Of a stretch of 64,000 bases of DNA, positions 7,818 through 23,870 are shown piece by piece (the stretch's first letter is position 1; each line of letters starts with the position of its first letter). Position numbers and translations under genes: made by a program. The stretch comes from Modicisalibacter xianhensis. Lineage in GTDB: Bacteria; Pseudomonadota; Gammaproteobacteria; Pseudomonadales; Halomonadaceae. The stretch spans positions 255,669 to 319,668 of the forward strand of contig NZ_FOPY01000001.1 in assembly GCF_900113605.1 (NCBI RefSeq). The letters run 5' to 3'. A model generated the notes under the pieces. The model did no database searches. It had not been told where the DNA came from and saw only the letters and a program-made list of their open reading frames with translations.

Positions 7818-8285
7818 TCACCCCTCGGCCGAAGCGGCCAGAGAAACGCTCTGTATAGGTAGCTGCACTGGCAACTTGATCGGTGTCGTCTGTGCCAGGT
7901 GCGCCAGGGTAACGCTATCGAGCAGCGTGCGAATCGCCAGAGAGACGCGCTGCCAGTTATCGGCGACACCACAACTGCCCGCCAGGTCGCACCCACCGCC
8001 TGCATGACTGCAATCAGTCATGGCCACAGGCCCTTCGATGGCAGCGATGATGTCACTCGCCGTGATCTGATTGGCCGGACGCGCCAGACGATAACCACCC
8101 TGAACTCCGCGCTGGGAGATCAACAAGCCGGCACGCACCAGCATTTTCAAGGTCTTGCTGACCGTGGGGTGCGGCAGATTGACCGCCTCTGCCAACTCGG
8201 TGGCGGCATATGACTGCTCTGGCTGCCTGGCAATCTGCGCCATCACCACGGCGGCGTAATCAGTTAGCTTGGACAGCTTTAGCAT
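7818..8285 (-). CDS. Rrf2-family Fe-S regulator of the suf operon
   Basis: A 155-residue winged-helix regulator. The N-terminus (MLKLSKLTDYAAVVMAQIAR) and the recognition helix region (HPTVSKTLKMLVRAGLLISQRGVQGGYRLAR) are typical of Rrf2 proteins. Three cysteines in DCSHAGGGCDLAGSC (about residues 92-105) match the IscR/SUF-regulator Fe-S ligand triad. As first gene of the suf operon, behind a palindrome overlapping its own -10, it most likely senses Fe-S status and represses the operon when clusters are plentiful. This is inferred from family and position. Confidence 0.92.
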   Translation of the reverse strand: MLKLSKLTDYAAVVMAQIARQPEQSYAATELAEAVNLPHPTVSKTLKMLVRAGLLISQRGVQGGYRLARPANQITASDIIAAIEGPVAMTDCSHAGGGCDLAGSCGVADNWQRVSLAIRTLLDSVTLAHLAQTTPIKLPVQLPIQSVSLAASAEG

Positions 8286-8308
8286 TCCTGCGCTCCAGCC
8301 AACGAAAG

Positions 8309-8347
8309 AATGAGGACCATTTTAGTCCTCATTAAAACCATTGTGAA
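8309..8347 (-). promoter_or_regulatory. suf operon promoter with overlapping Rrf2-type operator
   Basis: Read on the minus strand: a -35 element TTCACA (8342-8347), a 17-nt spacer and a -10 element TAAAAT (8319-8324), each 5/6 to consensus. A perfect palindrome with 9-bp arms AATGAGGAC (8309-8317) and GTCCTCATT (8325-8333) around a 7-nt A/T-rich centre covers the -10 box. Its size and layout (25 bp, GGAC...GTCC arms around an AAAAT centre) resemble IscR type-1 sites. Repressor binding there would block RNA polymerase. Confidence 0.75.
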
Positions 8348-8725
8348 GGCGCCATCTCGATTGAGGTTTTCTAGTTATCAAATAGGCAATAACGATTATC
8401 ACTCGTGGCTAGCATTTCCTTTCTGTTACATAGCTGCAGCGCAGCAAAGCAGAATTGTATCCATAAAGAGACACTTAGACTGCTTGAAAGTCGTCTAAAT
8501 AAGACATTTGACGCATGGACCCAAGGTCTCTAGGCTAAGCTACAAAGTTCTGGACAAGCACACGAACGTAAACGCTTTGAAACCAGCTGCAAAAATCTTG
8601 TAAGATTCTATATTCCTTGAGTTTTCACCTATCGAGAAAGGATCGCCTCGCCGGTAGACTCAGGTATAGATAGCGAACACTGTTAGAAAACAGTTTCACC
8701 TCCCAAATACCAAGGAGTGGTATTC
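8348..8725. promoter_or_regulatory. AT-rich spacer with probable promoter for the polysaccharide locus
   Basis: The spacer between the divergent suf and ugd units is clearly more AT-rich than the surrounding genes and holds no convincing gene. A candidate sigma-70 promoter reads TTGAAA (8577-8582), 18 nt, TAAGAT (8601-8606). A small inverted repeat, ACTGTT/AACAGT (8679-8684 and 8689-8694, 4-nt loop), lies in the presumed leader just before the ugd ribosome-binding site. No AlgU/RpoE-type -35/-10 pair was recognised. The length leaves room for regulator sites I cannot name. Confidence 0.4.
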
Positions 8726-10108
8726 ATGAAAATCACCATTTTCGGTTCTGGCTATGTTGGTCTCGTCACAGGCACCTGTCTGGCGGATGTTGGCCATGAC
8801 GTGATGTGCGTCGATGTCGATGAGGACAAGATCGCCCGGCTCAACAATGGTGAAGTCCCCATTTACGAGCCCGGTCTTGAGCCCATGCTCAAGCAGAACA
8901 TGGAAGCCGGTCGCCTCCAGTTCACGACCGACGCTGCCAAAGCCGTCAAGTATGGCAAGCTGCAATTCATTGCTGTCGGAACTCCACCCGACGAAGATGG
9001 CAGTGCCGATCTGAAATACGTGCTCAAGGTGGCGGAAACCATCGCCACTCACATGGACGAGTACAAGATCATCGTGGACAAGTCGACCGTTCCCGTTGGT
9101 ACGGCCGACAAGGTCAGCGCTACCGTCCGCGCCACCCTCAAGGAGCGAGGGGCCGATATCGATTTCGACGTTTGCTCGAACCCGGAATTCCTCAAGGAAG
9201 GCGCAGCGGTCGAGGACTTCTCCAAGGGAGCGCGCATTATCGTCGGCACTGATGCCGAGCCAGTAAAGAAAGCGATGCGCGAGTGTTATGCTCCCTATAA
9301 CCGCAATCGCGAAAAGCTGATGTTCATGGACGTACGCAGCGCCGAACTGACCAAGTACGCTGCCAACGCCATGCTTGCCACCAAGATCAGCTTCATGAAC
9401 GAAGTTGCCAATCTGGCGGAAAACCTGGGTGCCGATATCGAGCAGGTTCGCCACGGTATCGGTAGCGATCCTCGTATCGGCTATCACTTCATCTATCCCG
9501 GTTGCGGTTACGGCGGCTCCTGTTTCCCCAAGGACGTCCAGGCATTGGCGCGCACTGCTGGAAATGTCGGCTACGATGCTGAACTGCTGAACGCCGTCGA
9601 AGCCGTCAACAAGCGTCAGAAAGGTAAGCTGTTCCAGAAACTGTCCCAGGCCTTCGATGGCGATCTCAAGGGCAAGACCATCGCCCTGTGGGGGCTGGCA
9701 TTCAAGCCGAACACGGACGACATGCGCGAGGCCCCCAGCCGTACGCTGATGGAAGCCCTGTGGGAAGCAGGTGCCAAGGTTCAGGCTTACGATCCGGAAG
9801 CCGCCACCGAGTGTCGCCGTATCTATGGCGAGCGCAACGACCTGGTCATCACCGAGAAACGTGACGATACACTCGAAGGTGCCGATGCCCTGGTCATCTG
9901 CACAGAGTGGAAGATGTTCCGCGCCATCGACTTCGATCATCTCAAACAGAAGTTGAGCACGCCTGTCATTGTCGATGGCAGGAACCTGTTCGACCCGGAA
10001 ACCGTCAAATCAGCAGGTTTCCTCTACTACGCCATGGGACGTGGCGACTCGCTCAAGCGAGACGTCACACGCACGCAGAGCGAGTCATCGCTCAAGCGCA
10101 CCGCTTGA
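8726..10108 (+). CDS. ugd: UDP-glucose 6-dehydrogenase
   Basis: 460 residues. It oxidises UDP-glucose to UDP-glucuronate using NAD+. The N-terminal Rossmann motif is [10 protein letters not shown]. The middle carries [13 protein letters not shown] and [15 protein letters not shown], and the catalytic cysteine is C266 in [10 protein letters not shown]. The C-terminal domain has [17 protein letters not shown]. These segments are UGDH-type and differ from AlgD/GDP-mannose dehydrogenase. The start is the ATG at 8726 after AAGGAG (8712-8717); a GTG nine bases earlier overlaps that ribosome-binding site. First gene of the locus, it presumably supplies UDP-GlcA to the downstream synthase. Confidence 0.95.
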
Positions 10109-10156
10109 TTGCAAGGCTGACCTAGCTACCTCCGGGTAGGGCCTGCCATGGTGACG

Positions 10157-10218
10157 ATACGCAAGCCGGACCGATTCGATATGGAACCTCCCAGTCGGGT
10201 AGTATGCGGCTTGCGTAT
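10157..10218. repeat. 12-bp perfect inverted repeat after ugd
   Basis: ATACGCAAGCCG (10157-10168) and CGGCTTGCGTAT (10207-10218) are exact reverse complements with a 38-nt loop. The right arm is followed by TTCTTG. The position, 50 bp after the ugd stop, would suit a transcription terminator or attenuator separating ugd from the synthase operon. The long loop and short T tract make this uncertain; a protein-binding site or RNA structure is also possible. Confidence 0.5.
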
Positions 10219-10431
10219 TTCTTGTTGCCAGAGCGACCCTCGCTGTCAGGAGTCAGGTAACTAACTGCCTTGACATACTGTTATTTGATTAATGGCTTGG
10301 GATAAGAAGCCCTTAAATCAATTAACTGTAATGCAGATGTTTGGAACTTCATCTGCCAACACCTCAACGATGTCGATATCGGCGCGTGGAAAACCGAGTT
10401 TTCCCTCTGTCGCGATCAAGGATGGTTCGAC
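10219..10431 (+). promoter_or_regulatory. Leader/spacer upstream of the Alg8-like synthase
   Basis: 213 bp without a credible gene. It contains a perfect -35 hexamer TTGACA (10270-10275) in an AT-rich patch, but no good -10 at normal spacing, and a GGAACTT (10343-10349) without a matching sigma-E -10. The spacer may carry a promoter that lets the synthase operon be expressed apart from ugd. The synthase ATG is preceded by AAGGA at about 9 nt spacing. Confidence 0.25.
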
Positions 10432-12357
10432 ATGCAGAACTTTCAATCCGATGCCACCCGGGCCAGCTGGGTCACGGAGTTGACGACCTTTCTGTTTGGT
10501 GCAGCGCTGTTGATCGTACTGGTCTTCGAGCTGCCCCCAGAGGTCTTCTCGCCGGAATCCAAGAGCTTCATTCTCGCCATTGGTATTATCGGTGCCTGGC
10601 GATATTCCTGGTGGTTTGTCCAGGCAATACGCTCCGTCTGGTACAACCGCAAGGTCTTTCCCGAACTGCGCGCTCAGGCCGACGCTGTTGGCGCAGTGGA
10701 AAAGCCCGATCATCTTTACGTCCTGTGCACCTCCTTTCGCATCGAGCCGGAAGTGAGCTTTGCCGTCTACGATGCCCTGATAAGGGATGCGCATGCCTAC
10801 GGGGTACCTACGACTATCTTTGCCGCGATCTCCGATCGCAGCGATGTCGACGTCATCGAGCACGTCATGGCCGAGAACGGCTGGCCGACCAACATCGAGA
10901 TCAGCTACATGTTCCAGAAAGGCGACGGCAAGCGTTCGGCCATGGCCGAAGTGCTGCGTGCCATTTCACGCCGCCTGCCGTCTCACCGCTCGCTGCTGGT
11001 CTCGATGGATGGCGACATCCAGATCGAGCCAGGCACCCTGGAGCATTCCCTTTCCTTCTTTCTCGCCAACGATGAGCTGGGCGCACTGACCACCAACAAT
11101 CGGGCCATCGTCAATGGCGGCGATGTCACAAAAGAGTGGTACGACCTGCGCTACGCCCAGCGTCACCTGGTGATGAGCTCGATGTCGATCTCCGAGCGTC
11201 TGCTGGTCCTCACCGGCCGCTACAGCGCTTTCCGCGCCGAACTGGCGACCGACCCCGAATTCATCGAACTGGTCGAAAACGATCATGTAGAGCACTGGCG
11301 CTTCGGCAACTTCAAGTTCCTGTCCGGTGATGACAAGTCGACCTGGTACTGGTTGATGAAGAATCACTGGAAGATGCTCTACATCCCGGATGTCTATGTA
11401 TCCGGCTTCGAGGAACTGCCCGATCGTGATCGCTTCTTCAAATCCACTATCGATCTGATGCGCCGCTGGTTCGGCAACATGCTACGCACCAGCGGTCGGG
11501 CCATTTCTCTTGGCCCCCGCTCCATGGGCATGTTCACATGGTGGAGTCTGGTCGATCAGCGACTATCCATGTGGACGACCCTGATCGGCCCGACCGTGGC
11601 GATTCTGCTGACGCTGTTCGTGCGCCCGTCGTTCATCTTTGCCTATGCCCTGTGGATCATCTTCACCCGCAGCATCGCATCGACCGTACTGGCCATGCAG
11701 CGTGGTCGCTTCAGCCTGCTCTGGGTGCCCCTGCTCTACTACAACCAGATCGGTGGCGCCTTGCTGAAGACTTACGTCAGCTTTCGCTTCAATCGACAGA
11801 AATGGTCCCGTCAAGGCATCTCCGCCGGGGAGCCCAGCGATCCCAAGGCCGCACGCCGCCAGCGGCGCATGGGCCACCTCATCCATGGCGTCTATGCCGG
11901 CACCATGCTGCTGATACTGGCCATCGCTGTCGGTGTCCTGGCACCACCCGACCGAACGGCTCTCGCCGTGCTCAAGGACGAAAGCGGCCTGCTGTCCAGC
12001 GGGGAAGACCTGGATGGCGACAGTTACTGGATCGCACTGACGTTGGCCGATGTGCCCATGGATGGCCACGTTCAGCTACCTGCAGGGAAGATGTTTCTGG
12101 ATGCCACCCTGCCGAAAGAGTTGGCCAAGCTAGAGGCGATACGTGCCGCCAGCATGTCGGGTTATGACGGCAACCGGACCACGACGCTGCTGGTCGACCC
12201 GGCGATTGCCGAGCGACTCCGTGACTCACGCGACCGTCCACTGAGTGACATCGGCAGCATGACGTGTGGACAAGATGATAGCTGCACCCTGGTTACCCAG
12301 GAGCGCCCCATAACGCTGACCAACATGGAAGTGAGGCTTCGTTCCGCCGAGGCGTGA
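10432..12357 (+). CDS. Alg8-like family 2 glycosyltransferase (polyuronate synthase)
   Basis: A 641-residue inner-membrane processive glycosyltransferase related to alginate polymerase Alg8 over about residues 40-460. Landmarks are VFPELR, CTSFRIEPE, GDGKRSAMAEVLRAISR, the DxD-type DGD (193-195), TGRYSAFRA, an acceptor-side END (282-284), LSGDDKSTW, the RW of the LxxRW signature (345-346), and DQRLSMWTTLIG. Hydrophobic segments lie near residues 18-33, 47-65, 383-420, 428-445 and 485-503. Alg8 is about 490 residues. This protein has an extra membrane span and a soluble tail of about 140 residues with a CGQDDSC pair. The neighbouring ugd suggests UDP-GlcA as donor. Confidence 0.88.
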   Translation: MQNFQSDATRASWVTELTTFLFGAALLIVLVFELPPEVFSPESKSFILAIGIIGAWRYSWWFVQAIRSVWYNRKVFPELRAQADAVGAVEKPDHLYVLCTSFRIEPEVSFAVYDALIRDAHAYGVPTTIFAAISDRSDVDVIEHVMAENGWPTNIEISYMFQKGDGKRSAMAEVLRAISRRLPSHRSLLVSMDGDIQIEPGTLEHSLSFFLANDELGALTTNNRAIVNGGDVTKEWYDLRYAQRHLVMSSMSISERLLVLTGRYSAFRAELATDPEFIELVENDHVEHWRFGNFKFLSGDDKSTWYWLMKNHWKMLYIPDVYVSGFEELPDRDRFFKSTIDLMRRWFGNMLRTSGRAISLGPRSMGMFTWWSLVDQRLSMWTTLIGPTVAILLTLFVRPSFIFAYALWIIFTRSIASTVLAMQRGRFSLLWVPLLYYNQIGGALLKTYVSFRFNRQKWSRQGISAGEPSDPKAARRQRRMGHLIHGVYAGTMLLILAIAVGVLAPPDRTALAVLKDESGLLSSGEDLDGDSYWIALTLADVPMDGHVQLPAGKMFLDATLPKELAKLEAIRAASMSGYDGNRTTTLLVDPAIAERLRDSRDRPLSDIGSMTCGQDDSCTLVTQERPITLTNMEVRLRSAEA

Positions 12358-12397
12358 CGACCCCGGGTCAGTCGATACGTAAATGGAGAATGACACT

Positions 12398-14077
12398 ATG
12401 GCCGACGAGCATATCCCCAACGTTGACAATCGTAACGAGCCCACGTTGGGCAACTCACGCAATACGCGCAGTCAACCCGGCACCGGGTCGAACAGTGGCG
12501 TGGGCGGTCAACTGAATCATGAGCGTCGTGACGAGCGCCGTCACGTCCGCATCGATGCCCCTTTCCAGGTCAAGCTGGAAGATGGGCGCAGTCTGCCGGG
12601 CCACGACCTGTCGCTGGGTGGATTCTCGATTCACAGCGACAAGCCCTTCGAAGAAGGCCGTGTCGCGTCCATGTCGTTGCTGCTGATGGCGGGCGCTGCC
12701 GAATTGATCGTGCCTGTCACGGCCCGCGCACTGCGCAACCAGTCCGAGCGCAAGGGCAACAGCCACGAAATCGCCTTCGAAATCGTCAAGATCGACCAGC
12801 GCCATCGCGAGTTGCTGCGCCGGGTCATTCGCTCTCATCTCAGTGGCCGCTATGCGGCCATCGAGGACCTGGTCGAGAAGGAAGACCCCCAGACTCCGCG
12901 CAAGCGAAACACCCGCGCCGCTGCCGCCCAGACGACCAAGCCCAAGAAACCTTGGGGACGCTACTCGCTGCTGATCCTAGCCGGCCTGACTCTCGTCGCC
13001 GTCGCCGCTGCCACTGCCTATCGCAACTTCATGCTCATCGAGCCCAGCTTTGCGGCGGTGACCGCTCCGCGTGTCGACATTCGCGCCCCCGGGCCCGGCA
13101 TTCTTGCCGAGCATGACCTGCAGGCCGGTGACAAGGTCACGCGCGACCAGAAGCTGACCGAAGTCAACAACAGCGACCTGCAGACCCAGCTGATCTTGGC
13201 CAAGGCATCGTATACCTACAACCAGCAGCTGATCGAGAACATGCGCGAGGCGATCGAGGCACCTGGCGACAGCAATGTCACCATGCCCGAGTCGACGAGC
13301 CCATCCGGCGGCGAGCCCTCCAGCTATGAAAGCGTGTCGCCGGAAGTCGCTCGGGCCCGTATCGAGCAGTTCGAGACAGCCCGCGACTTCGAAAGTTCGC
13401 GTATCGATGCCCTGGAAGCCCGCGTTGCCGCCAACACCATCTACAGCCCCTGCGATTGCCAGGTGGCCTGGGCACTCAGTAGTGCCGGCGGGACCTGGAT
13501 CAACGAAAGCGAACGCATCATGACACTGTTGCGCACCGGCCCCAACGATGTCATGGCGGAAGCGCTGGTACACATGAGCGACATCGCCCGGATCGAACCG
13601 CACCAGAAGGCCTACATCGCCCTGCCCAACGCCTCCGAGCCCATCGAGGCCACGGTGCGTACCATCGCTCTGGACGTGGAAAGCCAACCGCGTGCCGGTT
13701 TCCCCAAATGGGTACGTCAACAGCAGAACGTCGCCAGTGTCCTGCTGGTGCCCGAGGAACCGCTTCCTGCCAGTGCCGTCGGTGTCCCCGTCGATGTGCG
13801 CTTCTCCGAAGTTCCCCTGGTCGATGCTACGGCGGAATGGGTTTGGCAGGGTGGTCGCGCCATCTACCAGCAGGCAACGGACCTGATCGAGGCCGTGTTG
13901 CCTGGCGATAGTTCCACTTCCGGCACCCAGGTCAGCGAGACCACCGAAACCGCTCAATCCTCCGGCGAGTCAGTCATACCCAGTGATGGTAATGCCCAGG
14001 CCGGAAGTGCAACGACCGTTACGGCGCGCAAGGACGAGAGCGTCGAAAACGACACCACGACACTGAGCGAGACCTGA
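12398..14077 (+). CDS. Alg44-like c-di-GMP receptor/co-polymerase (PilZ + HlyD-like)
   Basis: 559 residues. The N-terminal PilZ domain has overlapping RxxxR motifs (R43-R48) and DLSLGG (70-75), the c-di-GMP-binding signature. A single membrane span (about 188-208) is followed by a periplasmic HlyD/membrane-fusion region, with a barrel-sandwich beginning APGPGILAEHDLQAGD, a coiled-coil-like insert and a second half from YSPCDCQVAW. The tail is Ser/Thr-rich. This is the Alg44 architecture, in which c-di-GMP binding switches on the partner Alg8. The start at 12398 is chosen because GGAGA (12386-12390) sits 7 nt upstream; the ATG at 12383 overlaps it. It follows the synthase by 40 bp. Confidence 0.9.
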   Translation: MADEHIPNVDNRNEPTLGNSRNTRSQPGTGSNSGVGGQLNHERRDERRHVRIDAPFQVKLEDGRSLPGHDLSLGGFSIHSDKPFEEGRVASMSLLLMAGAAELIVPVTARALRNQSERKGNSHEIAFEIVKIDQRHRELLRRVIRSHLSGRYAAIEDLVEKEDPQTPRKRNTRAAAAQTTKPKKPWGRYSLLILAGLTLVAVAAATAYRNFMLIEPSFAAVTAPRVDIRAPGPGILAEHDLQAGDKVTRDQKLTEVNNSDLQTQLILAKASYTYNQQLIENMREAIEAPGDSNVTMPESTSPSGGEPSSYESVSPEVARARIEQFETARDFESSRIDALEARVAANTIYSPCDCQVAWALSSAGGTWINESERIMTLLRTGPNDVMAEALVHMSDIARIEPHQKAYIALPNASEPIEATVRTIALDVESQPRAGFPKWVRQQQNVASVLLVPEEPLPASAVGVPVDVRFSEVPLVDATAEWVWQGGRAIYQQATDLIEAVLPGDSSTSGTQVSETTETAQSSGESVIPSDGNAQAGSATTVTARKDESVENDTTTLSET

Positions 14078-14123
14078 GCGTCGTCGCCAGGACGTCCGTT
14101 AGAGACACAGCTAGGAGTTCGAC

Positions 14124-15059
14124 ATGTCGACACTGCACGCTGACTACCAACTTATCGACTCGACTCGCCAAGGATCGACGCGTCGGGTTTCCCTCAAGGT
14201 ACTGGCCGCGAGTCTTCTCGCGGCATCTCCCCTGCTCTCGCAAGCAGACGAAGGCAACAAGGACGACAAGATCCAGCTTTCCACGCCTCAGGTCGCTGCC
14301 TGCTCCATGCGCTATGACCTGGTGGCCGATCTTGCGCCACCGTCTTACGCCCGTGATGGCAAGGAGGCCGTGCGCCTCGGCTACGGTACCAATGACGACT
14401 GGGGCACCGAAAAGAACGTCGAGGTGATTTCCCCCCAGGAAGCCGGACTGGGAGAAACGGCGCTGCGAGTTCATTACCCTGAAGGCACATCGGCGCCCAG
14501 CGACCAGGGAGAAGGAGGCGCCGGGTTCTACGCGACGATCGGCGAGTTGCACCGCGCCGAGCGTGCCTGCCTGCAATACAAGGTGCGCTTCGAACCAGGG
14601 TTCGATTTCGTCAAAGGCGGGAAACTGCCCGGCCTGTACGGCGGCAACGCCCCAAGCGGCGGCGACGAGGTCAACGGCGAAAAAGGCTTTTCCATGCGTT
14701 TCATGTGGCGTGAGGATGGCAAGGGCGAGCTCTACGAATATGTCGTGAAGGACGAGGAATATGGCCAGTCGGTGGGGCGTGGCCGCTGGACCTTTCCGAC
14801 CGGCGAATGGGTCACCGTCGAACAGGAAATCATCCTCAATGATCCCGGTCGGGATAACGGTGTCGCCCGGGTCTGGATCGATGGCGAGCCGGTCCTCGAG
14901 CAGCACAACATCATCTACCGTCGTGATGACGACATTTATGTCGATGGCCTGATGTTCTCGACCTTCTTCGGTGGTCACGGCAAGGGGTGGCGCACCCCCA
15001 AGGATCAGGTGGCCGACTTTGCCGACTTCCGCTTCTACCGGCAGCGAGGCAATACCTGA
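14124..15059 (+). CDS. Secreted polysaccharide lyase-like protein (PL14/PL20 type)
   Basis: 311 residues with an N-terminal signal peptide containing a twin-arginine-like TRRVSLK before a hydrophobic core ending near SQA (about residue 40). The mature part looks like a jelly-roll lyase: QYKVRFEPGFDFVKGGKLPGLYGG, RFMWREDGKGELYEYV and FSTFFGGHGKGW resemble PL14-type domains, with PL20 glucuronan lyases the nearest alternative. It probably trims or clears polymer in the periplasm or outside. Its family has alginate- and glucuronan-cleaving members, so substrate is unproven. RBS TAGGAG precedes the ATG. Confidence 0.7.
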   Translation: MSTLHADYQLIDSTRQGSTRRVSLKVLAASLLAASPLLSQADEGNKDDKIQLSTPQVAACSMRYDLVADLAPPSYARDGKEAVRLGYGTNDDWGTEKNVEVISPQEAGLGETALRVHYPEGTSAPSDQGEGGAGFYATIGELHRAERACLQYKVRFEPGFDFVKGGKLPGLYGGNAPSGGDEVNGEKGFSMRFMWREDGKGELYEYVVKDEEYGQSVGRGRWTFPTGEWVTVEQEIILNDPGRDNGVARVWIDGEPVLEQHNIIYRRDDDIYVDGLMFSTFFGGHGKGWRTPKDQVADFADFRFYRQRGNT

Positions 15060-15103
15060 ACGAACATTAGCGCACGCCATACACCTAAAATAAAGAATTC
15101 GCC

Positions 15104-16333
15104 ATGACATTACGTACGCAGAACACCGGCCGCGGCCTGGTGATGGGATTGTTGTTTCTCGTCGGCATCACACCGGCCTGGAGCATGACATACGAAGAGC
15201 GCCAGCAATTGGATCTTTCTGCCTATACGGTCACGGATCCCGATGCATCGTACTTCGATGTACCACAACGCATGGCGCTGTTGGAGGACACGGAAAACCC
15301 GTTACTGATGCAGCACGCTCACGAACTCTCCTATGGCGTCAGTTGCCAGCAGATGCTGGAAATTCCGCCACTCGAGAAGAAAATTCGCATACCGGGCTTT
15401 TATCCCAGCCCGGACGAGTGGCGGTTTGCCGTCAAGCCGCTCACTGAGTTCGAGGATGTGGTATCCCGCCTGGCCGGCACCTACGTGGCAACGGGGGATG
15501 ACTACTATGCACAGTGTCTGGTCAAGTTCCTCGACCACTGGGCCGAGTCCGATGCCCTGATGGATTTCTTCTACACCTGGCAGCAGCCACAGGCCTGGTT
15601 CTCGACCGAGTCCATGCTCTTCTCGGCAGCTATGGCCTACTCGGTGGTTCGCCCTTCAGTCGAAGGAATGGACAGCGAAATCCAGCGCATCGACGACTGG
15701 CTCAGTCGCCTTGCCTACCAGCACTCGGCCATCCCCGGTCACAACAGCAGCTGTTGCAACAACCACTTTTACCGGCGTGCCCTGTACGCCACGATGGTGG
15801 GCGTACTCACCGATGACGATGAACTGTTCCGCTTCGGTGTCAGTGCAATCTATTCGGCACTCAGCGACATGACACCGGAAGGTGCCTTTCCCCTGGAAAT
15901 GCAGCGCGGACGTCGGGCCAGCCATTACCAGAACTACGCCCTGCTCTACCTGATCCCCAACCTGCAGATCATTGCACGCCAGGGCTATGACGTGTTCGAC
16001 CTGGAGATCAATGGTCACACCATCCACGATGCGGTCGATTTTGCCCTGGATACGTTCGAGGACCCATCAGCCCTCGGCGACATGGCACCGCACGAGCAGT
16101 ACAAGGGATTCTTCCAGGACGACCAGTACTTCGCCTGGATGGAAATGTACCAGTCGCGCTTCCACGATCCGAGGATCGCCGAGTTCATCACGCCTTACCG
16201 GCCAATCTACAACCGGGGTACTGGGGGCTACGTGACGCTTCATTTCATGGATCCGCAGGCCCAGTGGCACGAAACACTGCAGGACCGCAGGGAAGAACAA
16301 AAAGAACGTATCTGGAAGAAAACGGCACATTGA
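15104..16333 (+). CDS. AlgL-like periplasmic uronate lyase (PL5), copy 1
   Basis: 409 residues with a signal peptide (hydrophobic 11-26, cleavage near AWS). It resembles alginate lyase AlgL: NNH (219-221), R268 and Y275 in RGRRASHYQNYAL fall at the same spacing (47 and 7) as the AlgL catalytic His202, Arg249 and Tyr256. The AlgL SKYEGSD segment carrying Lys66 is not recognisable; IRIPGFYPSP stands at about that place. It is a close paralogue of the next gene. In alginate systems AlgL clears stray polymer from the periplasm; a similar role is likely here. The predicted ribosome-binding site is weak. Confidence 0.82.
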   Translation: MTLRTQNTGRGLVMGLLFLVGITPAWSMTYEERQQLDLSAYTVTDPDASYFDVPQRMALLEDTENPLLMQHAHELSYGVSCQQMLEIPPLEKKIRIPGFYPSPDEWRFAVKPLTEFEDVVSRLAGTYVATGDDYYAQCLVKFLDHWAESDALMDFFYTWQQPQAWFSTESMLFSAAMAYSVVRPSVEGMDSEIQRIDDWLSRLAYQHSAIPGHNSSCCNNHFYRRALYATMVGVLTDDDELFRFGVSAIYSALSDMTPEGAFPLEMQRGRRASHYQNYALLYLIPNLQIIARQGYDVFDLEINGHTIHDAVDFALDTFEDPSALGDMAPHEQYKGFFQDDQYFAWMEMYQSRFHDPRIAEFITPYRPIYNRGTGGYVTLHFMDPQAQWHETLQDRREEQKERIWKKTAH

Positions 16334-16405
16334 CCAGCCGCCAGGACGTAACCAGGGAACTGTCGCCACATGATTTCAATCCACATCTGACTACGGTAGA
16401 TAGTG

Positions 16406-17644
16406 ATGTCTTTGCCAAATGGACTTAGCAATACACTCAAAGGCATGAGCCGACTGCTCGTGGCATGCCTCGCCCTGGCGGCAACCGAGGCCATGGCCAT
16501 GTCACTGGAAGAACGCCGGGCGCTCGATCTCTCCGAGTATACGGTGACGGATCCCGACGCTTCCTACTTCGACGTGCACGAGCGCATGGCGTTGCTCAAC
16601 CAGACGGATAATGCCCTTCTCTTGCAACAGTCAGCGCAATTGGAGAGCGGTCCGAGTTGCCGGGAATTGCTCGCCATTCCCCCTCTGGACGATCAGATCC
16701 GCGTACCAGGCTTCTATCCGAACCCCAAGGAGTGGCGAGTCGTTTCACGCCCCATGTTCCAGTTCGAGGATACCGTCGCCAAGCTTGCAGGCTCCTACGT
16801 TGCCAGTGAGGACATCTATTATGCCGAATGCCTGGTCAAGTTCCTCGATCATTGGGCCACGTCCGACGCCTTGATGGACTTCTATTTCGAGACCTCCCAG
16901 CCTCAGGCCTGGTTCGCGACGGAATCGATGATCTTCGCTGCCGCCATGGCCTACTCCATTGTACGACCGGACATCGAAGGCATGGACGAAGAAATCGCGC
17001 ATGTCGATGATTGGCTGAATCGCCTGGCCCACCAGCACGCCGATATTCCCGGCTTGCCGGAGAACACGTGCTGCAACAACCACTTCTATCGGCGGGCGCT
17101 ATACGCAACCTCGGTCGGCATCCTGACCCAGGACAACGAACTCTTTCGCTTCGGCGTGAGCGCCATCTACTCGGCGCTCAGCGACCTGACACCGGAAGGC
17201 GCGTTTCGGCTGGAGATGAAACGCGGACGCCGGGCCAGCCACTACCAGAACTACGCCCTGCTCTACCTGATTCCCAACATGCAACTCATTGCCCGTCAGG
17301 GCTATGACATCTACGACCTGGAGATCGATGGCCACACCATCCACGATGCAGTCAGCTTCGCGCTGGATATCTTCGAGGACCCCACCCAACTCGGCGACAT
17401 GGCTCCACAAGAGCAGTACCGGGGGTTTTTCCAGGATGACCAGTATTTTTCCTGGATGGAAATCTACCAGTCACGCTTCGACGAGCCACGTATCGCCAAG
17501 TTCCTGAAACCGCTCCGTCCCGTGTTCAACCGTGGCGCTGGTGGCTATGTCACGCTGTATTACATGGACCCCGACGATCAGCAACACCAAGTCATAAAAG
17601 AGACTGAAGAGCGCATGGCCGAACTGCAGGACATGTCCGAGTGA
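16406..17644 (+). CDS. AlgL-like periplasmic uronate lyase (PL5), copy 2
   Basis: 412 residues with signal peptide (hydrophobic 16-26, cleavage near AMA). It is aligned almost without gaps to the preceding gene, sharing long identical stretches such as YTVTDPDASYFDV, LVKFLDHWA, CCNNHFYRRALYAT and RGRRASHYQNYALLYLIPN. Putative catalytic residues H226, R273 and Y280 keep the AlgL spacing. The tandem arrangement indicates gene duplication with divergence. The ATG at 16406 is used; a GTG directly before it is also possible. Different specificity or timing of the two copies is speculation. Confidence 0.82.
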   Translation: MSLPNGLSNTLKGMSRLLVACLALAATEAMAMSLEERRALDLSEYTVTDPDASYFDVHERMALLNQTDNALLLQQSAQLESGPSCRELLAIPPLDDQIRVPGFYPNPKEWRVVSRPMFQFEDTVAKLAGSYVASEDIYYAECLVKFLDHWATSDALMDFYFETSQPQAWFATESMIFAAAMAYSIVRPDIEGMDEEIAHVDDWLNRLAHQHADIPGLPENTCCNNHFYRRALYATSVGILTQDNELFRFGVSAIYSALSDLTPEGAFRLEMKRGRRASHYQNYALLYLIPNMQLIARQGYDIYDLEIDGHTIHDAVSFALDIFEDPTQLGDMAPQEQYRGFFQDDQYFSWMEIYQSRFDEPRIAKFLKPLRPVFNRGAGGYVTLYYMDPDDQQHQVIKETEERMAELQDMSE

Positions 17645-17693
17645 CAGGCCGGCACAGACTGGCCCGATTGACCCGCATAGGAGGGCGTACTTA

Positions 17694-19583
17694 ATGACTG
17701 TCAGTGCTACGTCGAGCCAGTCCCTGCGGCGTGCACGAGCCTGTCAAGGCCTGCTCGCTGCCACCTCGCTGATGTTACTGGGTGGCTGTGCCATGGAGCG
17801 CGGCCATTCCTTGGCGCTGGATAGCGCCATCGATCCCGCCTATCAGGACTGGTTCGATGGGGGAGCCCCCGCAGACATGGACTCCATGGACTGGGGGCGT
17901 ATCGACTTTGCCCGCCAGGCCGCAGAGTCAGGCAATGCCCAACGCGCCAAGGGGTTGCTTGCCTCGCTGATGAATGAAGGTTTTCCGCCGGCCTACTACG
18001 AAATGGGCAAGCTGTACGAAGAGGGGCTGGGCATGGCCCCGGACCCGGCCGAGGCAGCCAGATACTATGGGCAGGCGCTACGCCGCCCCTCCCCCATTCT
18101 CGGTAATGCCTCCCTGCGTCTTGGTCGCCTCTATCGTGACGGACGCGGCGTCGACCGGAACGAGTCGCTCGCCTACCAGCTCTTTCGTCAGGCGGTTGCC
18201 GAGGATACCGGCCCTAATGCCCAGGTCGCGCTCGCCGAGATGCTCGTCGAGGGGCGCGGTACGTCACGCAGTACCCAGCGCGCCTCGGTGCTATATTCCC
18301 AGGCAGCGGCTCAGGGCGACGGGCAGGCCCTGCAGGCCTTGGCCGAGGCGCATGCCCCAGGTGGCTGGTTGGCACGCGATGTGTCTCTCGCCAATGACTA
18401 CGCCGAGCGCTACGCCAGAACACTCGAGAGGCAGGCTCACCAGGGCGATGCGGATGCCATGGCAGCCTTGGCCAGGCTGTATGAGCGGGACGGCTTGCTG
18501 GGACCGCAACCAGATCAACACCGACATTGGCTGATGAGAGCGGCACAGGCCGGCCATGTCGGCTCGATGGGCACAGCTGGAGACATCCTGCTCGAGGAAG
18601 GCCAAACGGACCAAGGGTTGGCCATGTTGCGTCAGGCCGCCCAGGCAGGCGATATCTATGCCATGCGGGACCTGGGCGAAGCACAACTGCAACGTGACCC
18701 CGAACAGGCCAGGTACTGGTTGTCGAACGCAGCCGATCGGGGCTCCGTGAACGCGGCAGCGACGCTGGGCCGGGCCTATCGACACGGCACCGGGCTCGGG
18801 ATCGACAAGGCTAGCGCTGCCCGCTGGCTGGCTCGGGCCACGCAGGGTGGGCACGCCGGCGCGGCCGCCGAGCTGGGCCGCATGTATCTGGCCGGCGAGG
18901 GTGTCGAAAGGAGCCCGTCCCAGGGCGCCGAATATCTCCAGATAGCAGCCGAGCGAGGGCATGAAGGCGCCCGTGCCGACCTTGGCGAACTGCTGCTGAC
19001 CGGCACGGGACTTCCTGCCGACCCCGACAGGGCCATCCCGCTGCTCAAGGCTGCCGCGCAGTCAGGACACACCGGTGCGGCTCGCCTGCTGGGCAAAGCC
19101 TATCTCGAAGGCACCGGTGTCGCCCAGGACCCTCAGCAGGCCAGGCAGTGGCTGTCCCAGGCCGCCGACGGCGGACACATCCCCTCCCGCTATCGACTAG
19201 GCTATGCCTATCTGTTCGGGGAGAACGGCTTCACGCAGGACGTGCAGCGTGGCGAGCGTCTTCTTCTTGACGCCGCCAAGCAGGGCCACGCCGGTGCCCA
19301 GGTCGCCTTGGGCCGGGAATACCTCAAGGGCGAACTCCTCACCAAGGATCGCCAGCAAGGCGCCGAACTACTCTATCAGGCAGCCCAGCAGGGCCATCCC
19401 TCGGCTCGCTTGGCACTGGCCAAGGCCTATCTCTGGGCCAATGGCCTCGAAGATGCCAACCAGCAGCAGGCATTGCTATGGCTGGATACCGTGCTCGACA
19501 GCGGTAGCCAGTTTGCACTGGACACCATGCGCCAATTATTGACCAAGGCGAATGACGAGGCAGTGGCAAACGCCATGCTTTGA
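17694..19583 (+). CDS. Sel1-repeat lipoprotein, AlgK-like (copy 1)
   Basis: 629 residues. A lipoprotein signal ends in LMLLGGC (Cys32), so the mature protein is lipid-anchored, probably at the outer membrane. The rest is built of some fifteen Sel1/TPR-like repeats of about 36 residues (patterns such as AxxLGRxYxxGxGV...A..WL..AA..G). AlgK of the alginate exporter has the same construction and links the inner-membrane synthase to the outer-membrane porin. A shared N-terminal block, DWFDGGAPADMDSMDWGR, shows it is a paralogue of the next gene. A strong RBS (AGGAGG) lies 9 nt before the ATG. Confidence 0.8.
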   Translation: MTVSATSSQSLRRARACQGLLAATSLMLLGGCAMERGHSLALDSAIDPAYQDWFDGGAPADMDSMDWGRIDFARQAAESGNAQRAKGLLASLMNEGFPPAYYEMGKLYEEGLGMAPDPAEAARYYGQALRRPSPILGNASLRLGRLYRDGRGVDRNESLAYQLFRQAVAEDTGPNAQVALAEMLVEGRGTSRSTQRASVLYSQAAAQGDGQALQALAEAHAPGGWLARDVSLANDYAERYARTLERQAHQGDADAMAALARLYERDGLLGPQPDQHRHWLMRAAQAGHVGSMGTAGDILLEEGQTDQGLAMLRQAAQAGDIYAMRDLGEAQLQRDPEQARYWLSNAADRGSVNAAATLGRAYRHGTGLGIDKASAARWLARATQGGHAGAAAELGRMYLAGEGVERSPSQGAEYLQIAAERGHEGARADLGELLLTGTGLPADPDRAIPLLKAAAQSGHTGAARLLGKAYLEGTGVAQDPQQARQWLSQAADGGHIPSRYRLGYAYLFGENGFTQDVQRGERLLLDAAKQGHAGAQVALGREYLKGELLTKDRQQGAELLYQAAQQGHPSARLALAKAYLWANGLEDANQQQALLWLDTVLDSGSQFALDTMRQLLTKANDEAVANAML

Positions 19584-19639
19584 GTGGACGGGCAAGGAAA
19601 GCCAGTCCTCGTATCGCTTTGCACCAGGAGAAGACAGTG

Positions 19640-22426
19640 ATGACAGATCCGACGCTACGGAACGTGACTCGTTCGGCAGGATCCGCAAGATGGCTTGCTA
19701 CCGCAACTGCCGCACTTTGGCTGGGCGGTTGCGCAACAGGCGGTGGCGGCATGCAGACCAGCGGGCTGCCCGAGCCCGCCGTCGATTCACAGTACAGTGA
19801 CTGGTTCGACGGCGGTGCACCAGCCGATATGGATTCCATGGACTGGGGGCGTGTCGACATGGCCAGCCAGGCCGTGGAGAGCGGCAACACCAGCGATGGT
19901 ATCGCTCAGTTGCGGGCCTTGGCACGACAGGGTTATCCACCAGCCTATTACGAGTTGGGCAAGGTCTACGCCCAAGGGCTGGGCGTGGCTCGCGACCCTG
20001 CCAAAGCCGCTGAGTACTATGGCGAAGCCATTCGGACCCCTACCTCAATTCAAGGCTATGCCTCGTTGAACCTGGCCCGGCTCTACCTGGCTGGTGACGG
20101 TGTCCAGCGCAACGAGACACTTGCCTATCGCCTGGTCAAGCAAGCCGTGGAGGCCGGTACCGGCGGAAGCGCCGAGGACATGATGGGCGATATGCTGGCC
20201 CAGGGCCAGGGAGTGCCTGCCGATCCCCGCATGGCGATCAAGTTCTACGAGAGTGCCGCCAAGCAGAATCATGAAGGGGCGCTGCGCGCCCTGGCCGAAG
20301 CCTACAGTGAAAATGGCTGGTATCAGCAGAATCTGAGTCAGTCACGTGCCTATGCCCGCCGCTACGCCGATATTCTCGAGAAAAAGGCTAACGCCGGCGA
20401 TGTCGGCGCCATGGTCAACCTGGCCTCGCTATATTCGCAGAATGGCCTGCTGGAGCCTGATCCCGACAAGCGGCGTCAATGGCTGATGCGGGCCGCCGAT
20501 TCCGGCAACCCCGAAGCCTTGGCGGAGACCGGCGAAATGCTGCTGGCCTCGGGAGACACCCAGCGCGGCATGGATCTGCTGCGACAGGCCGCGGAGGCAG
20601 GCGACGTCGAAGCCATGGAACATCTCGGCAATGCCCTGCTTGGCGAGAACGGGGTCACTCCCAACCCGACGCAGGCTGAGCATTGGCTAAGCATGGCTGC
20701 GGACCAAGGGTCCACCTATGCCCAAGTTGTGCTGGGTCGTGCCTATCTCGAAGGCAATGTGCTACCGGCGCAACCCAACCGGGGAATCGACCTGCTCGAA
20801 CAGGCCGCCCGGGAAAACGATCCTCTGGCATTGGCTGTCCTGGGGGGAGTTTACCTCGACCCCGAAAATGGTCCGACCCAGCCCCAGCGTGCCATCGAGT
20901 ACTTGCAGCGGGGTCATGAAGCAGGCAGCAGCTATGCCACGGCCCAGCTCGGCGAAGCGTACCTGGAAGGCAACGGAGTTGCGCCGGACGGCGTGCGCGC
21001 CGTGCAACTGCTCAAGGAAGCCGCTGCCGAGGGGCAGGTTTTCGCATCTCGCCTGCTCGGCGAAGCGTACCTGGAAGGCGAGGTACTCAACAGCGACCCC
21101 GTCAAGGCGGAACAACTCCTGAAGCAGGCCGCCGAGGCCGGTGATACCACTGCCATGACCAAGCTGGGCGTGGCCTACCTCGACGGCCCGCTACAGGAGA
21201 CCGAGCCCGGCCAGGCCGTGCGCCTGCTCGAAACCGCCGCCGAAGGCGGCGATGCCTATGCGATGGTCGAGCTGGGCCGTGCCTACCGCGAAGGCAATCT
21301 GGTCAATCAGGACCTGGCGCAATCCGAGTACTGGCTCAAGCGAGCGCAACAGGCCGGACACGACTCCGCCACCGACGCGCTCTCTCGCACCTACCGTGCC
21401 CGCGGCGAGCGCGGCGACATCGATGCACTCAAGCGTGCCGCGGAACTTGGCGACCCCTCGGCAATGGCCGACCTGGGACGCGCCTACCTCAACGGCTCCG
21501 GCGTGAGCCCGAACTACCGAGAGGCACGTCTCTGGCTCGAACGCGCCTATGACGAAGGACATGCGGGCGCCGCGGCCAGCTTGGGCAACATGTATCTTGA
21601 AGGCAAGGGCGTCAAGCAGAACGCCACGCATGGGATCAATTACCTGAAGAGCGCCGTGGCCCGAGGCAATGCCGGTGCGCGTCGCGATCTCGGGCGCATC
21701 CTTCTCGAAGGGAGGCTAGTGCCTGCGGAGCCCCAGCGCGGCCTAGAGCTGCTGCGTCAAGCGGCAACCAGTGGTGACGATGCAGCAAGCCTGACACTCG
21801 GCGAAGCCTATCTGGAAGGCCATAACGTCGAGCAGGATATCGACACGGCCGTACGCTACCTGACCCAGGCAGCCGAGCGGGGCAACCCCCATGCGGCACA
21901 GGCGCTGGGCGAGGCCTACCTGAAAGGCGATGTCGTCGAGCAGGATGCCGAACTTGCCAAGAAGTGGCTGACTCGCTCTGCCAATGCCGGCGTCGCCTGG
22001 TCCCAGTCTATCCTCGGACGCGCACTGCTCTACGGTACGGCCGGTATCGAGAAGGATGTCGAACGCGGTCGACAGTTGATGACCCAAGCGGCCGAATCCG
22101 GACACCCCGGTGCCCAGGCCTCGCTGGGCCGTGAGTACCTGGCTGGTGAGGTGCTCGACGTGGACACCAACCGTGGTGCGGAGTGGCTGTACAAGGCAGC
22201 CAGCCAGGGCCATTCGACTGCCCGCCTGGCACTGGCCAAGGCTTACCTTTGGGCCAACGGCCTGGAAGGCGCCAACCAGCAGCAGGCCCTTCTCTGGCTG
22301 GACAAGGTGATCGATGGTGATAGCCAGATTGCGCTGCAGACCATGCGCGACCTGCTGGAAGACGAAAAAGCTGTCGAGGCCATCCAGCGTGCCGCCGCCG
22401 ACGAGAGCGAAGTGACGGAAAGCTGA
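19640..22426 (+). CDS. Large Sel1-repeat lipoprotein, AlgK-like (copy 2)
   Basis: 928 residues, lipobox ending at Cys31 (LWLGGC) followed by a glycine-rich linker and then more than twenty Sel1 repeats. It shares the DWFDGGAPADMDSMDWGR block and the C-terminal repeat LALAKAYLWANGLE with copy 1, from which it differs mainly by extra repeats. The ATG at 19640 has AGGAG (19626-19630) at 9 nt. A longer frame beginning inside the previous gene would push the lipoprotein signal inward and is not preferred. It is the last gene before a strong terminator. Probable role: periplasmic scaffold for polymer export. Confidence 0.8.
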   Translation: MTDPTLRNVTRSAGSARWLATATAALWLGGCATGGGGMQTSGLPEPAVDSQYSDWFDGGAPADMDSMDWGRVDMASQAVESGNTSDGIAQLRALARQGYPPAYYELGKVYAQGLGVARDPAKAAEYYGEAIRTPTSIQGYASLNLARLYLAGDGVQRNETLAYRLVKQAVEAGTGGSAEDMMGDMLAQGQGVPADPRMAIKFYESAAKQNHEGALRALAEAYSENGWYQQNLSQSRAYARRYADILEKKANAGDVGAMVNLASLYSQNGLLEPDPDKRRQWLMRAADSGNPEALAETGEMLLASGDTQRGMDLLRQAAEAGDVEAMEHLGNALLGENGVTPNPTQAEHWLSMAADQGSTYAQVVLGRAYLEGNVLPAQPNRGIDLLEQAARENDPLALAVLGGVYLDPENGPTQPQRAIEYLQRGHEAGSSYATAQLGEAYLEGNGVAPDGVRAVQLLKEAAAEGQVFASRLLGEAYLEGEVLNSDPVKAEQLLKQAAEAGDTTAMTKLGVAYLDGPLQETEPGQAVRLLETAAEGGDAYAMVELGRAYREGNLVNQDLAQSEYWLKRAQQAGHDSATDALSRTYRARGERGDIDALKRAAELGDPSAMADLGRAYLNGSGVSPNYREARLWLERAYDEGHAGAAASLGNMYLEGKGVKQNATHGINYLKSAVARGNAGARRDLGRILLEGRLVPAEPQRGLELLRQAATSGDDAASLTLGEAYLEGHNVEQDIDTAVRYLTQAAERGNPHAAQALGEAYLKGDVVEQDAELAKKWLTRSANAGVAWSQSILGRALLYGTAGIEKDVERGRQLMTQAAESGHPGAQASLGREYLAGEVLDVDTNRGAEWLYKAASQGHSTARLALAKAYLWANGLEGANQQQALLWLDKVIDGDSQIALQTMRDLLEDEKAVEAIQRAAADESEVTES

Positions 22427-22457
22427 CCAGGGTCAGCGTCATTCATTCCACGCAAAA

Positions 22458-22486
22458 AATAGCCGGCGCCAAAAGCGCCGGCTATT
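22458..22486. terminator. Bidirectional Rho-independent terminator
   Basis: AATAGCCGGCGC (22458-22469) and GCGCCGGCTATT (22475-22486) form a perfect 12-bp stem with a 5-nt loop. On the minus strand it is followed by a run of T (complement of the A tract 22454-22459), ideal for purA. On the plus strand it closes the polysaccharide locus. It sits exactly between the convergent genes. Confidence 0.9.
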
Positions 22487-22517
22487 CATTCCAAGCTTCC
22501 CTTCAAAGAGAAGTTAG

Positions 22518-23870
<1,353 letters not shown>

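Follow-up and report, generated by a model that had tools for sequence, protein, structure and literature searches.

An alginate-like exopolysaccharide operon of Halomonadaceae with a UDP-glucose dehydrogenase and glucuronan as its probable product

Gene content of the operon

A run of eight genes on the plus strand, beginning with the UDP-glucose dehydrogenase gene ugd (from 8726) and ending with the second of two genes for Sel1-repeat lipoproteins (to 22426), was analyzed in a 64,000-nucleotide stretch of the Modicisalibacter xianhensis genome (hereafter, the window), which belongs to an assembly of 4.36 Mb in 45 contigs. All of the named genes are open reading frames, and the run lies between suf/rrf2 genes on one side and purA, on the minus strand, on the other (by eye and BLAST). 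Domains were assigned from Pfam and NCBIfam searches of the window proteins. The run recalls the Pseudomonas alginate operon (algD-alg8-alg44-KEGXLIJFA) in its order of dehydrogenase, glycosyltransferase family 2 (GT2) synthase and PilZ-HlyD co-polymerase, the latter two being homologous to their alginate counterparts, and in its repeat lipoproteins and family 5 polysaccharide lyases (PL5); it differs in that Ugd stands in AlgD's place and a PL14 lyase has been added.

The first gene (ugd, 8726..10108; ATG at 8726, with GTG at 8717 possible) encodes a predicted UDP-glucose 6-dehydrogenase (PF03721, PF00984 and PF03720) that would make UDP-glucuronate. After a gap of 323 bp follows the Alg8-like GT2 polymer synthase (10432..12357; 641 aa; PF13641), which is extended at its C terminus beyond residue ~510. 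This C-terminal domain (window positions 11960 to 12357, residues ~510 to 641) contains a near-invariant cysteine pair, C612 and C618, and is missing in some relatives. A conserved RNA element in the 323-bp gap was considered and rejected, as Rfam gave no match in 8200 to 22600 and an alignment of 14 ugd-synthase gaps was conserved among the nearest relatives only. The Alg44-like co-polymerase (12383..14077) combines an N-terminal PilZ domain (PF07238; RRDER...DLSLGG), a membrane helix and an HlyD-type periplasmic part with the motif SPCDC (PF13437). The original prediction of an Alg8- and Alg44-like pair holds, given the GT2 domain of the synthase and a match of the co-polymerase to Alg44 over 357 columns (hhalign, probability 99.9, E 1.4e-34).

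Three lyase genes come next. The first encodes a PL14 lyase with a signal peptide seen by eye (14124..15059; PF21294, 221.6 bits against a cut-off of 27), and the others encode paralogous PL5 lyases, a (15104..16333; PF05426, 128 bits; predicted to be periplasmic from a signal peptide, by eye) and b (16403..17644; PF05426, 122 bits). Lyases of PL5 and PL14/PL20 type had been predicted here; PL5 (in two copies) and PL14 stood, while PL20 was rejected for the gene at 14124 to 15059, as PF21294 denotes PL14. The last two genes encode putative outer-membrane lipoproteins with the lipobox LGGC, a (17694..19583; PF08238 in 8 stretches) and b (19640..22426; PF08238 in 12 stretches; the listed start is TTG at 19580, and ATG at 19640 is likelier). 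An AlgK-like role is proposed for both, and the AlgK model (NF038194) gives them 60 and 137 bits, far under its cut-off of 700.

The operon thus brings together a processive GT2 synthase and a PilZ receptor domain, the combination that defines synthase-dependent exopolysaccharide (EPS) systems regulated by cyclic di-GMP (c-di-GMP). The c-di-GMP motif is present in 85 of 89 co-polymerases of the family, and binding of the nucleotide is predicted. For the outer-membrane part of such a system, Sel1 lipoproteins are present in the operon and a porin was not found. A porin candidate, the 414-aa product encoded downstream of the Sel1 gene in two related loci, proved to be another PL5. These further, distant-type PL5 genes occupy the space between purA and the final Sel1 gene (L047, 13829 to 15073, with 3nfv as its nearest solved protein; L048, 15335 to 16579).

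Dehydrogenase and conservation in Halomonadaceae

The assignment of the first gene to UDP-glucose dehydrogenase, and not to AlgD, was borne out by sequence motif and by structural matches. Specifically, the window protein carries a Ugd-type motif with the catalytic cysteine, instead of which AlgD proteins of alginate clusters have a GFAFGGSCLPK-type motif, and its nearest solved protein is the UDP-glucose dehydrogenase 2y0e (569 bits), compared to 211 bits for the GDP-mannose dehydrogenase 1mfz. Identity is 33% to AlgD and 68% to a second Ugd of the genome. Under NCBIfam, the protein passes as a nucleotide sugar dehydrogenase only, with the best equivalog, TuaD, below cut-off. Dehydrogenase lineages here and below were judged from BLAST and best solved matches rather than from a tree.

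A search of the whole genome recovered three UDPG_MGDP_dh proteins, two of Ugd type and one without the catalytic cysteine, and none of the three is AlgD-like. The second Ugd adjoins a chain-length-regulator-like protein (by eye) in another cluster. The third paralogue lies beside galU outside the window (G000:C41:190857; L005, 1051 to 2352) and has asparagine in place of the catalytic cysteine (GFGGPNFSRD); it is possibly an inactive or regulatory protein. A single AlgA/ManC scored above cut-off, in a cluster for another EPS with a WcaJ-like sugar transferase (by eye), and one Alg8-like synthase was found in all. A complete algA/algD set elsewhere in the genome that could feed this synthase was therefore looked for and not found, and an AlgD outside the window was rejected, as the genome search detected no GDP-mannose dehydrogenase.

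The synthase occurs in 89 of 275 Halomonadaceae genomes, at 92 places, and in 13 of the 14 genomes listed under the same genus, a listing that leaves out 166 genomes without a match. All 91 loci outside the window were fetched, and the arrangement sought, ugd with Alg8-like, Alg44-like and PL5 genes, recurs across the family: ugd lies directly upstream of the synthase in 87 neighborhoods, and the co-polymerase is present in 88, PL5 in 87, Sel1 in 86 and PL14 in 76. The gap between ugd and the synthase measures 6 to 14 bp in 61 of the 87 loci (starts are approximate); the two genes are therefore probably co-transcribed in most loci. Chance juxtaposition was rejected on these short gaps and on the recurrence of the gene order in most neighborhoods. 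In 74 of the 91 loci, the fetched sequence includes purA or rrf2. The four loci without ugd comprise two at contig ends (L045 and L199), an orphan synthase (L100) and a locus where the operon is otherwise present (L103). Separately, one locus holds a second PL14-PL5 pair (L088, genome G134), and three genomes have two synthase places each (G082, G162 and G163).

Unlike the Pseudomonas operon, none of the 91 neighborhoods contains AlgD, AlgA, AlgE, AlgG, AlgI, AlgX or AlgF (BLAST at E 1e-6 with the Pseudomonas-type operon L110 as sole reference; AlgG, AlgI, AlgX and AlgF were sought in neighborhoods only). These counts bear on whether the operon makes alginate or another mannuronate polymer, with GDP-mannuronate supplied from elsewhere and ugd a mere neighbor. 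The Alg8-, Alg44- and AlgK-like parts, PL5 lyases with A1-III as their best solved match, and the AlgA/ManC of the genome speak for such a product; the missing AlgD-type dehydrogenase, the adjacency of ugd against the complete absence of AlgD in the neighborhoods, and a synthase and lyases that differ from their alginate-cluster counterparts make it very improbable. A polymer of another uronate derived from UDP-glucuronate, such as galacturonic acid, via an epimerase encoded elsewhere is likewise improbable: UDP-glucuronate is the precursor of UDP-galacturonate in an established pathway, but no epimerase is found among the operon genes, the rest of the genome not having been searched for one.

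Synthases and lyases of the operon and their relatives

The window synthase has no NCBIfam match and is ~41% identical to Alg8, and the profile of the family synthases matches Pseudomonas-type alginate synthases at ~430 bits. Phylogenetic analysis against Alg8, as the original prediction had proposed, placed the ugd-linked synthases in a clade apart from the AlgD-linked ones. In a tree of 74 synthases, all 25 ugd-linked sequences form one clade (support 100/99), joined next by the orphan of L100 and then by Maritalea (98/81), with the AlgD-linked sequences elsewhere. A second tree of 70 rows, which includes genome G1186 and other added rows and from which three long-branch and seven Halomonadaceae rows were dropped, contains a branch of 23 rows (Shimodaira-Hasegawa-like approximate likelihood ratio test, 98), comprising 18 ugd-linked synthases, five without a dehydrogenase and none linked to AlgD. 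Deeper joins are unsure because of long branches.

Residues were counted in 93 clade synthases (the window, 91 family loci and Caenispirillum; ugd was seen with 89) and in 45 AlgD-linked synthases, omitting four loci that repeat others (L281 to L284). Beside the GKR motif, positions 161 and 165 are F and D (F..GD) in 93/93 clade synthases, as well as in Maritalea and G1186, while in the AlgD-linked set 35 have R paired with T, S or Q (mostly R..GT), 3 have K paired with T or S, and 7 were unmatched. At position 223, N occurs in 88/93 (4 unmatched, 1 L) compared to E in 44/45 (1 unmatched), and position 259 is V in 90/93 (3 unmatched) compared to T in 45/45. These positions may contact the nucleotide.

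An AlphaFold2 model of the window synthase (predicted local distance difference test score, 84) has hyaluronan and cellulose synthases as its nearest folds. A phmmer search with the window synthase found no solved Alg8, and the match to hyaluronan synthase is therefore non-discriminating. Hyaluronan synthase, to which the window synthase shows 13% identity, makes an alternating polymer; a heteropolymer in which the operon's synthase would likewise alternate glucuronic acid (GlcA) with a second UDP-sugar is an unlikely, though not negligible, alternative.

A scan of the order matched 35 of 390 genomes, and the 28 that belong to other families scored ≤442 bits, compared to >1000 for family members; a scan of the phylum matched 24 of 398, with 513 bits the best outside the family. 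Fifteen of 19 loci fetched from 18 of the 28 order genomes were AlgD-linked, as were five of eight loci from eight further phylum genomes. Among the best 80 of 539 matches kept from a scan of named genomes, 17 were not named Halomonadaceae or Maritalea, and these comprised 11 with AlgD, one with ugd and five with neither. In the family of genome G742, an Alg8-like synthase occurs in 22 of 297 genomes; of the 12 loci listed, 10 are AlgD-linked, one, in G1186, has the letters of the window clade, and the twelfth was placed in neither group. The G1186 locus contains synthase, co-polymerase and PL5 genes with no dehydrogenase seen, and a GGDEF-EAL-like gene nearby (L296, 2751 to 4742, by eye) fits c-di-GMP control. 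Plasmid copies were matched in 14 records, and the five examined (three from Rhizobium, one each from Jannaschia and Loktanella) were all AlgD-linked. Two orphan Alg8-like synthases (L138 and L139; genomes G845 and G712) lie beside a resistance-nodulation-division efflux operon (domains checked in L138).

Caenispirillum salinarum AK4, an alphaproteobacterium (Rhodospirillales), carries a version of the operon with 72% identity in the synthase, 64% in the co-polymerase, 43% in Ugd, 64% in PL5 and 55% in Sel1. Its synthase is nested within the Halomonadaceae branch, and the best solved match of its Ugd is 4a7p (489 bits), which we take to be from Sphingomonas, rather than 2y0e (384 bits). The operon therefore seems to have moved, with a Ugd that comes from a different lineage in Caenispirillum. 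A need for UDP-glucuronate predicts just such a replacement of Ugd by the same activity.

In Maritalea mobilis (L137/L200), galU is followed by synthase (49%), co-polymerase and PL5 (42%) genes, and this pairing of galU with a related synthase is a further line that fits UDP-glucuronate. Beyond them lie genes for an RTX-repeat protein of 787 aa with a right-handed beta-helix, a candidate polymer modifier, and for a 323-aa barrel-like protein, a candidate pore. The beta-helix protein was considered as a C5-epimerase, and no DPHD, which we take to be the motif of these enzymes, was seen in it by eye; the motif is visible in AlgG-like proteins of the compared loci.

The PL5 lyases form a group of their own as well. 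In a PL5 tree of 46 rows (quick method), 27 enzymes of ugd operons, with Maritalea as sister, stand apart from 15 enzymes of alginate clusters. PL5a of the window retains the catalytic Asn-His and Arg..Tyr positions. It keeps the equivalents of N167, H168, R215, R218, H221 and Y222 of Smlt1473 from Stenotrophomonas (roles according to PMC8511899), and differs from it in having arginine at the equivalent of W171. This tryptophan position (W205 in AlgL) is arginine in 101/101 operon PL5s and in Maritalea, and the 19 full-length PL5s compared from other clusters have tryptophan (15) or leucine (4) there, none of them arginine. Matches weaker than E 1e-15 or shorter than 300 aa are left out of the 101; three full-length enzymes so omitted (L140, L149 and L276) have leucine and are counted among the 19. 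At the equivalents of 218, 221 and 223, 100 of the 101 operon enzymes have arginine, histidine and glutamine (one unmatched), and Smlt1473 likewise has arginine and histidine at the first two.

Both lyase families had been said to include enzymes that cut polyglucuronate, and published work agrees: Smlt1473 (PL5) cuts poly-GlcA at pH 7, and hyaluronan and alginate at other pH values (PMC8511899), and the chlorovirus lyase vAL-1 (PL14), whose structure 3a0n was aligned with the window PL14 together with 5gmt, cuts 1,4-linked GlcA chains (PMC5408694). Brevundimonas SH203, which degrades poly-GlcA (cellouronate), has one PF05426 protein, not assigned as its lyase in that study (PMC5477187). Three lyase genes in a row might suggest a locus for degrading polyuronates from outside. 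This is hardly credible, as ugd, the synthase and the PilZ co-polymerase belong to one operon at almost every one of the 91 loci, and neither a transporter nor a uronate catabolism gene is found among its eight genes.

Predicted pathway and product

Overall, we conclude that this is probably a synthase-dependent EPS operon of alginate-like build, fed by UDP-glucuronate, with glucuronan, poly-(1,4)-beta-D-GlcA, as its most likely product. That the donor would be UDP-glucuronate follows from the conservation of the operon, the phylogeny, the residue differences in synthases and lyases, and the other-lineage Ugd of Caenispirillum, and the same evidence supports the original prediction of a c-di-GMP-regulated GlcA polymer rather than mannuronate. 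Donor use, linkage, homopolymeric nature, c-di-GMP control, the role of the lyases and export are inferred from sequence, and the 1,4-linked GlcA homopolymer is our best inference rather than a result.

In the proposed pathway, Ugd would oxidize UDP-glucose to UDP-GlcA, and binding of c-di-GMP to the PilZ domain of the Alg44-like protein would switch on the Alg8-like synthase, which would polymerize GlcA and move the chain across the inner membrane. In the periplasm, the HlyD part of the co-polymerase and the two Sel1 lipoproteins may then guide it to an outer-membrane pore encoded outside the operon. Stray or over-long chains would be cut by the PL5 and PL14 lyases through beta-elimination; AlgL is reported to clear stray polymer (PMC8829089).

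Several observations weigh against this interpretation. With a second Ugd in another cluster of the genome, UDP-GlcA is not unique to the operon, and two loci away from contig ends (L100 and L103) have no ugd beside the synthase. The synthase letters track the clade and not only the dehydrogenase, since the Alg8 letters R/T are retained at five alphaproteobacterial loci where no AlgD was seen, and the orphans L118, L138 and L139 show neither pattern. Among the lyases, the PL5 of G1186 keeps arginine at the tryptophan position without the Arg/His pair at the equivalents of 218 and 221, and alginate lyase is the name given to the top solved matches of both kinds, A1-III for PL5 (173 bits compared to 107 for Smlt1473) and 5gmt for PL14. 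PF13372 (AlgE-type porin), a model that recognized 1 of 14 controls, had no match in the genome, and a search there with the Maritalea barrel came back empty as well, which shows little. Finally, PMC6962145, as far as available, describes Halomonas EPS as mixed polymers, with GlcA at trace level in one and at 27.9% in another, so that source gave no glucuronan from Halomonas.

The proposed polymer would be the glucuronan that Sinorhizobium meliloti M5N1CS and Peteryoungia rosettiformans produce. In S. meliloti, a glucuronan lyase accompanies glucuronan production, and the same 2023 source states that the genes and loci of glucuronan synthesis were unknown (PMC10180729). The operon had been called not a standard described one. 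No description was found in the open-access literature, most subscription papers lying outside that search, which agrees with this statement; single genes have been mentioned, as 'Alg8' and 'alginate lyase precursor' are named in Halomonas smyrnensis, without context in the available portion of PMC4523562. We lean toward the view that, as far as the open-access literature shows, no earlier gene set has been put forward for dedicated synthesis of glucuronan by bacteria. On this view, the operon would be a branch of the Alg8 family gated by c-di-GMP and fed by UDP-GlcA; it would have a lyase clade of its own, be common among halophiles, have passed from one class to another with its Ugd replaced, and export its product without a porin of AlgE type.

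Gene labels of the kind 'alginate biosynthesis protein Alg8' or 'alginate lyase' in Halomonas genomes, as in PMC4523562, may mislead, and the sequence signature described here separates the synthases of the operon from Alg8. Its lyases form a candidate group for cellouronate. Together, these genes probably explain how glucuronan is made in some bacteria, and they provide a concrete, testable set.

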